A stretch of 64,000 nucleotides of DNA. Source: Dromaius novaehollandiae (taxonomy: Eukaryota > Chordata > Aves > Casuariiformes > Dromaiidae). This document shows positions 22,401 to 28,400 of the stretch, one piece after another. Below the pieces are notes generated by a model, which made no database searches, was not told where the DNA came from, and saw only the letters and a program-made list of their open reading frames with translations. Position numbers and translations under genes: made by a program. Positions within the stretch are counted from its first letter, which is position 1. Each line of letters opens with the position of its first letter. The stretch is from contig NC_088101.1 of NCBI RefSeq assembly GCF_036370855.1, positions 5,401,501 through 5,465,500 on the forward strand, given 5' to 3'.

Positions 22401-25400
22401 ACTGTACAGAACTTACCACCAGTTCAAGTCTCCTTTGATGAGAGTTCAGTTGGATTTTACATCTTGGAAGCAGGAACACAGGCGAAGTTCCCACACCAGA
22501 ACCACCTAATAGCTCTAAGAGGCAGGTTTAGATGGATAAATTTCACTCTGCAGCACCTTTTCTATACTGTTTTACACTAGTTTTAAGACCAGTCTGAGAC
22601 ATTTTGGTTACCTACGCTGTCCTTTCCCCAAATCTCTGTGGATGTGACCCAGACTCCCATTCCTGGGATATACATGTGATCCCTTTAATTCCACAGTCAT
22701 GTCTCAGAAACTTAGAAACTCTCTATCTGCTAAAGCAAAAGAAGTTGATAGTTCAATGACCAGAATTATTTTTTTCTTTGCAGTGTAAATCCTATTTAAA
22801 AAAAAAAAAGTCACCTGACAAACTTGAAACACATGATTAGTATCAAGGACATTCGGGTTGCACAATCTGTCTCTAAAAACATTAAGGGACAGCCTTTCTT
22901 TTTGTTAAAAACAGCACAACAAATGGTATTATTGTTTCGTGGTTCATGCTGCACCTTCTTTGTCATCAGTTGATCTAGCTGTTGTGTATTCAGTTGATTG
23001 ACACTCCTTCAGCAGGGCCCCTATTTTAGCAAATGTTATTTTGTGATGAAGCAAACGAAAGGGAAAGAGTTCTTCCCACTCCCTGACGTTAGAGGCTTAG
23101 GACTAGACTCACCTCAAACCCATTTACTTTTTGATTTCAGTCGCAAAATAACTTTTCTGCTGATAAAAAAACAGTCTCGATGGCAACTCCTCCTCTGATG
23201 TGTCTGTGCCAAACGCAGCAGTGAAACAGCATGGAAGAGCTGGCAATACTTTTTAAGAGAGGCATTTTACTGTGGAGCAAATGATTTACAGAATTTGTTT
23301 TATTCCTTTACTGGACCCTTGAACAAAACAATGAATACAGCTTTTACAAGTGTTTGCCTTATCCTTTGTCAGCCTGTTGGGATCCTTCAACTCAAGATCT
23401 TATTTTGCTGAAACACAGAGTCAAGTATAATTATGTGACATCCTGGAACAGTCTAATCCTATTGTGAAGTGGGTTTTCCCATTAGGAATGATCCATCTAA
23501 TTATATGCAGCAAACTACAGGTAGCAGATACAGACTAACTGCATTAACTGTTTTTATGAAAGTATTATTTAAGAGAATTATTTTGCTCTGCAGTTGGAAA
23601 AGACCAAGCATTTAACTGTGTTGAGTCAACGAATGCATTTTAATGCAGACCTCTCAGTAGCGTATGGCTTCCAACTAATTTTCGATTCAAAGTCAGGATT
23701 CTTTGTCTGCACCAAAGTAAATTTTATCTTTGATGATGGTGCTTCAGCCACGCAACTCAGATAATCAAAGCTTTATTATTCTCCCTGGCAAATACTTCAT
23801 TATGCATTTGTTTTATAGTCAGTCCCAAGAGAGGGGTTTTAGGGCTAGAATTTTTTAAAGTGGCTCACTTTTTTTTCTTTTTTTTTTTTTAAGTTTTCAT
23901 TCAGAGGAACCAGAGTTAAGCCAGCATCAGGACATCTGAACAGCCTTCAGAATAGCTCAGTCCTGGCTACCGCTCAAAGAACTCTAAAGCAGAAGAAAGA
24001 AATGGTTTCGCAAAAGAGGAGCTTTCTGAAGAAGTGGTTTCCATTAGAAAAGGCCAATTCAACAAACTCTGGGCATTTTGCAGGATGTGTGGATTTCATT
24101 GATGCTTTCACTGGAAACCAGGTCAATGTCACGGGCCTCTCGCCAGCCTGCCCGCCACACGGTAGCGGTGAGCCCCAAAAACCCGCCTGCTGCAGTCCCA
24201 GCCAGGGCTGAAACAGATCCAAGGCCCCCCCAGTGCAACGGCGAATCCTACCGGCTATGGCACCCTGAGGGCTTTGCAGTACGTCCCAAAGCGGAGGGCC
24301 CAGCAGCTCTGGGACCCTGGTTTCGGAGGGGCTGCCCCTCACCCTGCCCAAGGGGGAGGCATACAGGCAGCTCTGAGTGCTGAGGGGCTTGTTGGTGGTC
24401 CGCCTAGACTCAGTTTTGCTTAGAAAAAACCACTTTTTTTTCCCCGATTCTTTTTCAGAAGTTTGGCATGCTTTTTTGCTGATGCAGAAAGAGCATATTT
24501 GGGGAAGCAGAGGAAAGAAGGGGTTTTTGATTCGGGAGTTTCCTGGGGAACAGAATTCCAAATTCCCACTACATTCGTCTAGCAACATAAATGTTCAAAT
24601 GTGCGACACTGCCTACAAGCAATGTGAATGTTTTCTCACACTATGACAGTGTATCATATGACACAGTCAAATCCTGCACATCACCCGGCTTGTTTGTACT
24701 ACAAGCTGGGCTTTTTTGTTTTAAAAGAATATACCATTTTTAAAGAACTAAGTAATTACAGGAGCCAGATTCAGTATTATAGTGCACAAAAGTGAGGATA
24801 AGTTAAAAAAAAAAAGACAGTAAAATATTAGCTTAGAGATGTAACAATATTTTTCACACAGGTGGCTCTAAAATACTTGTAATTGGGATCAAACATTTAT
24901 ATTATTTTAATAAGAATTCTATATTAGTTCAATATGATCAAGTAAGGATAAAAGACATTCCAGACTTTTGTGCAATTGTTTTTAACCCTGACTTTGCCTC
25001 GCTGTACTTCCTTTAAGTACACTCCTCGTTATTTTGTAATCTCAGCTTGCATGATGCATCGCATAGTGAAGGCAATCTGCAACAATCAGTATTGCTCATG
25101 TTTGGTTATAGGTTGTCCTAGTGATGTGATTTACTGGTATGATCACTGCAAACTCGAATACCTTGCAATGGGTGGAGCTTATTGGAATACCCACATTTGA
25201 GGCTACAAGTACCGTTAGCGCACACATTACTTCAATGCAAAATCCACTGTGAAGAAATAAAAAAAAGACAGATGGAAAACCTGTAGTAAAAGAGTTATAT
25301 GCAGGAAATCCCATGCCATGCACTTATCACGAAAGTGAAGTAAAAATGATGAATGGTGCGCAGCCTCTGAACAGGGGAGAAATGCTACACAGCCAGGTTG

Positions 25401-28400
25401 AAGTGGCACCTTCAGAGGAAACCAGCTTCTTCATTTCCATATGCCCTTATAATTGTTTGCTTTCAAATTGAGTTCAGTTTTTTTTAAGTGATGTTTTTCT
25501 TTAACCACAGCTATGGAGTTCACACTCTGGTGGCTGCCATGCCTGATTGCAACAACCTTACTGTGACAACCTCCATGTACTTTTTGAGGCCTGATTTTTA
25601 AAATGTTGCTGGCACAGGTGAGACACCATTATGCACCTCTGCATAAATGTTCCCAGCAAGCAGCTCTTCTCCCCTCGCCGGGTTTCCCTGGCTGAAACAT
25701 GCCATTATCAACTGATCTGAGCAGCACAATTTAAGATGAATAGTCCAGACTGCCTTGACTGCAGTCACTTGGCAAAGGCATACCTTGCAGTGTGTAGTAC
25801 TGACTGGAAGTCCAACATTGGAAGCTACCACAACTGTGAACGCCGAAGCCAACTCAATAGTGAATCCACTGCAGGAAGCATAAGAAAACACTTCACAATC
25901 ACTCTTTGCATCAGCTTGGACTGATACCATGCAGTGTGCCAAAGTCTTACCCGTTTCTTCTTCAACTCATTATCTCCAACTGATTTTGTCACAGAAATAA
26001 GTTAAGAGAGCAAGGAACTGCTGAATAATGGAAACAGTACATGCGAGTCATCTGCAGTGAACCGGCTGCATGGCTCATTGCATCGGGATCTTTTACTACT
26101 CTAAGCCGCAATGAATCATGCCTAACTAGTGATTTGGTTAAGCAGCAGCAGAGGTATAGTATGCATTAAAGACAGAAATAACTGTAATAAATACGTATGT
26201 TTTTAACAGGCTGAAACACACAGAGAAAGCCTTTGTAGTCTTGTCACTTCCAAATGCAATAAGTGGACCATCACCTTTTGCCATGTTAATTAGGATGTCA
26301 ACAGAAGACCTTGCTTATTAGCAGATCTCCGTGCCTCAAACTCATTCCGTATTAGTTTACAGAGGTATTTTTCTTTCTCTTTTCTCTTTCTTTTCCTCTT
26401 TCTTTCTTTTTTAAGAAAGATGGAGAGGTCAGAACAAGGTTATCAATCAAATCAAAGCACAAGTAAATCCAGCAAATGAAATACTAGAGCGGCAATTTTT
26501 CAGACTACCTTCACGCAACAGGTTCACAGAACTCCAACAGCAAGTGTTGTACCTACCTTGATGGTGTGATTGGCGTGAGGTCTTTACCCATTGTCTGGAT
26601 GACTCTTCTACCCCAGACCCAGAGACCCACGCAAATCCCAACACCTCCGTAAAACAGCAGCCAGACGGGAGTCGATGCTTCTTGCATTACACCACCTTGG
26701 TCATAGATAAGCCAGAGAGCGACTAGAGGACCAATTGCATTGCTGGGGAAACAAAAGAACACCAGAAATTAATGAACAAAATTATCTTCCTAGACTAGGA
26801 AGATACAAATATTATCTAGTCCGAAAACCTGTAATTTCTGGAGATACTATCAGAATGCAACTGGGAAAGTCGTTTAATCCTCTTTAAATGCATGTGTAAA
26901 ACTAGTTTAACTGGATCAGAGAGGACTGCTTGGTGACACAGAGCTGGCATAAGCCCTTTTCACTACTCTGCTGCTCCTATCTAGAAAAACCCTGAAAGTC
27001 AGCAATGCTGAAGTCCCCATTCCTAATGCAGGACACAAAATACTGGTGGCTAACTCAAACTCCAGTTCCTGCAGTGAGACTTGTAACTCCAGTTATTCTA
27101 AAAAAGCATTAAGTTTCTAGGTCCGAGAGGCAGAATAAGAACTTGAAAGCTGGGATCCAGTTACCTTTTCTTGCAGTTCCCTTGCTAAACTCAGCAGCAG
27201 CTTGCCCTGCTGAGCAGCATCTACCCCAACTTGAAAAAGCATGAAAAGTGAGGCAGCACTGTAAAAAGGGCGTCTAATTATGCCTAAACAATCACAAGAA
27301 GGGTAGAGCAAAACTGTCACTCAACGTCACTCAAAAAGGTTGAAAAACAACAGGAAACTTCCCTCTCTACAAATCGATGGAGAGCAGGCCACGGCTGTGC
27401 TTGCCCTGCGCCCAGGACTGGCTAAATTTAGTAGTGGTCCAAGCACACACATGAAGCAGGGAACATTTGTAACATCAAGTGTTGTGCAAACCAAGCCATC
27501 GTAACCTGATGTTCATCATTTACTTGAGGACATCTTTAACAGATGCAAAGTGCTAGGGGCTGAGCGCTGATCATCAACAGATAAGGGTCCTTGGTATCAC
27601 AAAGCTTGGCACACCTAAGCCTTCCTCTCTCTCTTTTGGTCACTGAGAAATTGAGCTCTAAACTCCAAGAAGTGGTCCTGGAGCAAAGGGATTAAGAAGG
27701 AATTTCCCCTTGTGAACACAAAACAAAACCAACATTCAAGCCATGTGACAAACTGAAGTACTTTAAAAATGTTGTTTGATATAAAATCAAATAAATAATT
27801 CTTAAAGATTCTGAGAAAGATGCTGGAAATAAATTAGTGTGCTAACATGAACAACAACATCTAGTGGGTGTGAAGACACTGAGTAGCATGATGAAGAAAT
27901 AAATGCATTTTAAATACAAGGTGATTTCCACTAGTAAAAATACTTTAAGATTCTGGTCTGATTTGGGGGTTGAGTACACAAGATATGTTGAGTTTTTCTG
28001 AATGCAGGAGTGCAATGACAGTATGTGAAAGTCCATAGTGCCTGAATGCAAAACTTACTTTGCCTTGAAGGAAGAAGAGATACTTCACTGATGTTTTTCT
28101 AGCATTTTTAAGCTGACCTACAACTTTGTGGCCAGTATTTGTAGGTGTAGATCAAATTACTTACTTTTTAAAATACCTTATTATGCATAGAAAACAGAAA
28201 GCTTCTTCATTGTACCTTCAACTGAAGGATGCAGAAGGCAGCTAAGGATAAGGACAACTAAAACATTCGCCAGATGAATAAAGTGAAAACTGAGCATCCC
28301 TCCTTATATGGTTTTGTGACATGGTAACAACCTCCCTGTTGAAAACAACAAGTTTGGAGCTAGCCCAGGCACTGTTTCCTACCTGTTCTGGAGAGATTAT

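Follow-up and report, generated by a model that had tools for sequence, protein, structure and literature searches.

Homologous exon swaps and the relatives of PiT-2

The SLC25A3 mitochondrial phosphate carrier has mutually exclusive homologous exons, 3A and 3B, and its isoforms reportedly have different tissue patterns and affinities for phosphate. Here we describe a pair of homologous exons in SLC20A2, the gene for PiT-2. This phosphate transporter is widely expressed, and familial brain calcification has been linked to loss of its function. The pair lies in a 64,000-nucleotide stretch of the emu genome (Dromaius novaehollandiae, contig NC_088101.1, positions 5,401,501 to 5,465,500), which is referred to below as the window. 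SLC25A3 belongs to an unrelated carrier family and to another membrane, and it serves as an analogy only for the possible effect of a swap. Our analyses indicated that exon 9 of SLC20A2 is very probably an ancient tandem duplicate, of which each mRNA takes one copy, either the canonical (9a) or the alternative (9b), to give two versions of PiT-2.

Tandem duplicated exon substitutions have been catalogued in vertebrates, and 236 of them are annotated in human (PMC9741552). Like the events in that catalogue, the emu pair consists of neighbouring homologous exons that appear to be swapped one for one, with key residues kept and mostly conservative changes. Exon 9b is real, an event of a known kind, and both older and more widespread than a first-pass annotation, made from the letters of the window, could see. 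The catalogue, however, concerns the human gene set, and a list drawn up from human genes would overlook the SLC20A2 swap, which was not found among placental proteins. Two studies of exchanges between homologous exons (PMC9741552 and PMC4465641) do not contain the term 'slc20' in their main text. The first-pass annotation was aware of no described PiT-2 isoform of this kind. A literature search of titles and the starts of abstracts, with most subscription journals and supplements outside its scope, likewise found no paper describing one among those listed, but automated annotation does list it, mostly as 'isoform X2'.

Within the same family, the paralogue SLC20A1 (PiT-1) has an exon 9 of the canonical type, and no second copy of that exon was found in the 3.1-kb emu PiT-1 locus (L007, one strand) or in a search of the genome. 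A sequence search found one relative of solved structure, TmPiT of Thermotoga (PDB 6l85). TmPiT differs in being bacterial and without introns. Its alignment to PiT-2 is free of gaps over the exon 9 block (residues 570-598) and, as we number it, places Glu575 opposite Asp327 and Ser593 opposite Ser345.

The SLC20A2 gene model and the two copies of exon 9

In the gene model, emu SLC20A2 spans 51068 to 19418 of the window (minus strand), with 10 coding exons and 652 residues. Among the first 120 proteins compared, its product was nearest to PiT-2 of the duck Anas acuta (626/652 residues). The features of the model, from which each line derives unless another basis is given, are as follows:

50780..51068, minus strand, coding exon 1, holding the start codon
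45182..45322, minus strand, coding exon 2
43908..43993, minus strand, coding exon 3
41248..41344, minus strand, coding exon 4
39186..39302, minus strand, coding exon 5
38282..38485, minus strand, coding exon 6
36106..36694, minus strand, coding exon 7
26557..26742, minus strand, coding exon 8, to which the exon 9 copies are joined on the upstream side, donor GTAGGT
25784..25868, minus strand, canonical exon 9 (9a), the familiar version of residues 570-598 (basis: splice sites, frame)
25247..25783, minus strand, 537-nt intron separating 9a and 9b
25162..25246, minus strand, alternative exon 9 (9b), residues 570-598 (basis: splice sites, frame, and a block type shared with 68 of the best 120 of 881 proteins)
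19418..19582, minus strand, coding exon 10 (last), the downstream splice partner, holding the stop codon

Both exon 9 copies are 85 nt long, are preceded by AG and followed by GT, and are entered in phase 2 and left in phase 0. The first-pass description of the pair (85-nt exons 537 bp apart, of equal phase, with GT-AG sites and 20/29 residues in common) was re-derived in full. Its human-style numbering of the block also fits, as exon 9 begins precisely at residue 570 of the 652-residue model.

Comparison of the two copies gave an identity of 55/85 bases and 20/29 residues. The nine substitutions that lead from 9a to 9b are T573C, L576V, A577M, S578C, F580L, V583L, L590I, V592I, and T594S; Glu575 and the motifs VASNVG and THCK are common to both copies, as had been claimed. 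Of the 29 codons, nine are the same in both copies, 11 show synonymous and nine non-synonymous differences, and the earlier description of the differences as 'largely synonymous or conservative' was a fair one. By codon position, differing bases were found at 19/28 third positions, eight first positions and three second positions. A dN/dS ratio between the copies, put forward in the first-pass annotation as a check, was obtained only in its first term: the rate of non-synonymous change (dN) was 0.207 (Nei and Gojobori method, NG86), and the synonymous rate (dS) was undefined because synonymous sites were saturated. This divergence is the pattern of two old coding copies, both apparently retained as protein.

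As a control for chance, stop-free 85-nt segments of the gene between AG and GT (n = 32, with 9b included and both 9a and segments overlapping 9b excluded) were scored against 9a with BLOSUM62. Exon 9b scored 105 over 28 residues, and the next best of the 32 segments scored -4. When the gene was shuffled 100 times by dinucleotides, the best segment scored 21, and a chance origin of the likeness between 9a and 9b was rejected on this basis.

Exon 2 (45182-45322, minus strand) is the N-terminal counterpart of exon 9, from the internal repeat of PiT proteins. This stretch scored 39 against the exon 9 block, ranking next below 9a and 9b within the window, and no second copy of exon 2 was found in a tblastn search.

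Reading frame, splicing and transcripts

Splicing of the gene model as exons 8, 9a and 10 or as exons 8, 9b and 10 left an open frame in both cases, with a 652-aa protein each. Inclusion of both copies shifted the frame and produced a stop codon ending 70 nt upstream of the last junction. Omission of exon 9 altogether also shifted the frame; the stop then fell within exon 10, and the predicted product of 599 residues had the wrong end. The spliced model thereby confirmed the earlier claim that double inclusion and double skipping both disrupt the frame. As a general rule, a stop at such a distance before the last junction is expected to trigger nonsense-mediated decay.

We propose that each SLC20A2 mRNA takes 9a or 9b, which would give two full-length PiT-2 transporters differing solely in residues 570-598. 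The choice between the copies would be made by regulated splicing, and the double-inclusion transcript would be removed by nonsense-mediated decay. Mutual exclusion of the copies would follow from the frame together with the isoforms seen. Steric exclusion was ruled out as its means, the 537-nt intron between 9a and 9b being far too long. Pairing between introns, in a weak test on one species with whole-intron energies, showed no excess, as the best duplexes were equalled or beaten in 10, 50, and 11 of 60 shuffles. Because the spacing excludes a steric block and the introns showed no more pairing than shuffled sequence, trans-acting regulators combined with decay of the double-inclusion product would be the likely means of exclusion.

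The donors of 9a and 9b are weak, with a U1 pairing of -5.7 kcal/mol each, the other eight donors ranging from -5.1 to -13.0. The pyrimidine tract is richer at the 9b acceptor (19/22) than at the 9a acceptor (15/22). A single TGCATG hexamer, the motif of RBFOX, precedes each copy of exon 9 in the adjoining intron, beginning approximately 65 and 76 nt upstream, and the hexamer is absent from the first 1000 nt downstream of 9b. The single TGCATG before each copy is a candidate splicing signal, as a lead only.

Transcript evidence for 9b came from two short-contig cases. A 644-residue protein containing 9b (P0033, source 'lgn') was derived from two contigs, the longer of 2,610 nt. A contig of that size has no room for introns of this gene, so the coding sequence must be nearly uninterrupted, and we have taken it as a spliced transcript containing 9b. 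Over all 644 residues it is identical to isoform X2 as predicted for the bullfrog (P0034, on a 992-Mb contig). The second short-contig case carrying the block (P0041) is fish-like. The source 'lgn' appears to hold assembled sequencing reads. In the catfish Trichomycterus, isoforms X1 and X2, from contigs of one length, differ at eight residues, every one of which is inside the block.

Distribution of the 9b-type block

A protein search with the 9b isoform, restricted to the block region, gave 881 matches, the best 120 of which were listed and typed as 9a or 9b. Two further protein searches gave 1756 and 409 matches, with the best 120 listed from each. The database was clustered at 90% identity, so that isoforms merge and a missing representative does not mean that a block is missing from the species; in addition, several representatives may share a species (e.g., four from Vipera latastei). 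Unless stated otherwise, the results below refer to the best 120 of the 881 matches.

The 9b block was identified in 68 of these proteins, 67 of which contain it alone. The remaining one (P0001, from a catfish) contains both blocks, the canonical before the alternative, as in emu. The carriers included birds, a tortoise, lizards, snakes, frogs, and many ray-finned fishes (bowfin and sturgeon among them), as well as sharks, a ray, a chimaera, the echidna, the Tasmanian devil, and a hagfish. Most of them went under the source name 'sodium-dependent phosphate transporter 2 isoform X2', and the named carriers included no crocodile, salamander, coelacanth or lungfish. The exact 29 residues of emu 9b were present in 19 of 309 fetched proteins and a variant with Ser578 in 23. 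A lamprey protein (P0072) has an intermediate block, yet it carries Ser594, which was found elsewhere only in 9b blocks. Amphioxus and tunicate proteins were not seen; a search with a short query, chosen to keep full-length vertebrate proteins out, gave solely vertebrates among its named matches (best 120 of 409).

The first-pass annotation had pointed to sauropsids, amphibians and fishes as the groups in which to look for a second copy, and the block is present in predicted proteins of all three. The same block in PiT-2 isoforms of many vertebrates supports the original reading of a tandem duplicated, alternatively used SLC20A2 exon.

Among the marsupials, one representative had 9b (P0016, Tasmanian devil) and three had 9a. 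The P0016 block carries V584L and V588G, the latter in no other 9b-type block seen, and these substitutions may mark relaxed constraint in marsupials. None of the 26 named placental PiT-2 representatives (8 and 18 from two listed sets) had 9b, all being of the 9a type. The human SLC20A2 gene has been described with nine intron-exon borders (PMC3126765), which fits ten coding exons and no additional one. A loss of 9b on the placental branch is probable from these comparisons, and its absence from the placental proteins examined may explain why studies of the human gene missed it.

Several points weigh against our reading of exon 9 as a tandem pair used one copy at a time. Mutual exclusion is deduced from the frame and the isoforms, and the catfish prediction P0001 joins both copies, with linker residues. 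The transcript evidence is from species other than emu, and 'lgn' only probably consists of assembled reads. Furthermore, most of the database matches are gene predictions, possibly copied by homology, and clustering at 90% hides isoforms inside clusters.

Age and origin of the duplication

Trees were built from 37 of the 309 database proteins, chosen by taxon, together with the emu sequences, and the tree of the block used 29 columns. The non-vertebrate set consisted of 44 blocks, out of 80 new proteins; the blocks belonged to molluscs, annelids, a brachiopod, nemerteans, arthropods and unnamed sources. This sample was biased, as the query held a guessed protostome-like block.

The hagfish protein with a 9b-type block grouped with PiT-2 when exon 9 was removed (support 91, quick tree). 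Because a hagfish PiT-2 has this block, 9b probably dates back to the origin of vertebrates. In the 29-column tree, 9a and PiT-1 formed one clade (support 100/97) and 9b, including the hagfish and lamprey blocks, formed another (92/96). The clade of 9a and PiT-1 recurred with all 44 non-vertebrate blocks (99/96). This grouping suggests that the duplication occurred before the split of PiT-1 and PiT-2, and that 9b was later lost in PiT-1.

In the biased non-vertebrate sample, 9b matched the common protostome block at 24/29 residues, PiT-1 at 22/29 and 9a at 21/29. On this count, 9a has changed at least as much as the copy at 25162-25246, which the first-pass annotation called 'divergent'. Sites 583 and 577 are the clearest in the set. 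At site 583, Leu is present in 44/44 non-vertebrate blocks and in 9b, and Val in 9a and PiT-1. Site 577 is Gly in 43/44 non-vertebrate blocks, Met in 9b, and Ala in 9a and PiT-1. Site 594 is Thr in 44/44 non-vertebrate blocks and in 9a, and Ser in 9b. With Ser594 and Met577, 9b is therefore not simply the ancestral copy.

Alternatively, the duplication may have arisen within PiT-2 after PiT-1 had separated, the likeness of 9a and PiT-1 being a consequence of convergence or slow change; we regard this as a serious possibility, a little short of an even chance. The points that favour such a later origin are those that weigh against a duplication before the split. The origin tree has only 29 columns and its bootstrap had not settled, and the grouping of 9a with 9b was not rejected by the approximately unbiased (AU) test (p = 0.057, and 0.23 with all 44 non-vertebrate blocks). 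When seven arthropod-like blocks were the sole outgroup, none of the three pairings of 9a, 9b and PiT-1 was resolved (AU p of 0.43, 0.29, and 0.57, with 0.29 for 9a and 9b). A later origin has to account, however, for the high support of the PiT-1 and 9a clade with either sampling, and for the Val583 and Ala577 that PiT-1 and 9a have in common where non-vertebrates have Leu and Gly.

Duplication before the split would form part of a fuller history, in which PiT-1 and placental PiT-2 both lost the b copy, the human PiT proteins run on the a copy, and most other vertebrates make a 9b PiT-2 with older residues (Leu583) and different transport. We advance this combined history tentatively, as possible but somewhat doubtful. 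If it is true, human brain-calcification biology concerns a gene with half of its original repertoire lost. A loss on the placental branch would also mean that catalogues of exon swaps centred on human overlook ancient events that disappeared there.

Constraint, transport residues and other explanations of 9b

Regional constraint was compared in 22 proteins of the alternative list (21 of the alternative type and the lamprey protein) and nine canonical ones. Between emu and chimaera the 9b block is identical at 29/29 residues and the whole protein at 521/651; between emu and the shark Chiloscyllium the values are 28/29 and 511/650. The 9a block of emu and saw shark is identical at 29/29 residues, against 517/649 for the whole protein. 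At the protein level, 9a and 9b thus appear about equally constrained. Cartilaginous fishes and birds have been separate for more than 400 million years.

Glu575 and Ser593 are reported to be required for phosphate transport (PMC3126765), and Thr595 to be altered in patients (PMC6872723). These three residues were invariant in 45 aligned PiT proteins and are present in both 9a and 9b, and in precomputed annotation the alternative-isoform proteins of other species carry PF01384. The critical transport residues would stay intact in both versions. The swap from 9a to 9b puts Cys, Met, and Cys in place of Thr, Ala, and Ser near Glu575, and Ser in place of Thr594 beside Ser593. Because these substitutions adjoin Glu575 and Ser593, altered affinity or ion coupling is a natural guess. 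We speculate that the 9a and 9b proteins would handle phosphate or sodium differently, be it in affinity, rate, pH, or ion use, in different tissues or states.

A second version of the transport core, nearly unchanged from cartilaginous fishes to birds and unseen in placentals, is a natural experiment. The two evolved transporters are nine residues apart in emu and eight in the Trichomycterus pair, and a comparison of them could reveal which residues tune phosphate and sodium handling. If our reading is true, studies of slc20a2 in birds, frogs and fishes may be measuring two proteins together.

A different role for 9b would be that of a decoy ('poison') exon, which is spliced together with 9a to switch PiT-2 off through mRNA decay. 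The stop codon 70 nt before the last junction upon double inclusion and the two weak exon 9 donors (U1 pairing of -5.7 kcal/mol each) would suit such a role. However, a decoy would not require an intact, in-frame block of 29 residues, and 9b is identical in emu and chimaera and keeps Glu575, Ser593 and Thr595. The short contig, moreover, encodes 9b alone, and we consider a decoy very improbable.

We give even less credence to 9b being a dead or dying relic that is still picked up by annotation pipelines. The Tasmanian devil copy with V584L and V588G, and the count of 0/26 named placental representatives, are what such decay could look like, but in emu the frame and splice sites are intact, and the identical 29 residues recur in 19/309 fetched proteins and the Ser578 version in 23.

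That 9b owes its likeness to another PiT gene, as a paralogue, or to a fragment of a retrocopy can practically be dismissed: a PiT-1 gene is indeed present in the emu genome (contig C26), but its block scores 132 against 9a and 113 against 9b, 9b lies alone between 9a and exon 10, in frame and phase and with its own splice sites, a search of the 1.47-Gb genome (in which only the best candidates were scored) gave seven matches, all PiT-1 or PiT-2 exons, and in a tree from which exon 9 was left out the carriers of 9a and 9b intermix by species and therefore represent one gene.

A Clunio marinus protein (P0121) was rejected as a further case of a tandem exon, as its 928 residues comprise two whole PiT transporters end to end. 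Either two tandem genes really exist there, or the prediction fused them.

Other features of the window

No Rfam family reached its gathering score within the window. An open frame at 595-1551 (minus strand) matches the UDP-glucuronosyltransferase (UGT) family PF00201 (E 3.8e-57) and is probably part of a neighbouring UGT gene. A 390-codon open frame at 10858-12027 (minus strand) matches the sulfotransferase family PF00685 in four stretches (E 2.6e-58). The sulfotransferase frame lies in a G+C-rich stretch at 8-14 kb, where the G+C content is 0.61-0.63, compared with 0.36-0.46 at 18-52 kb.

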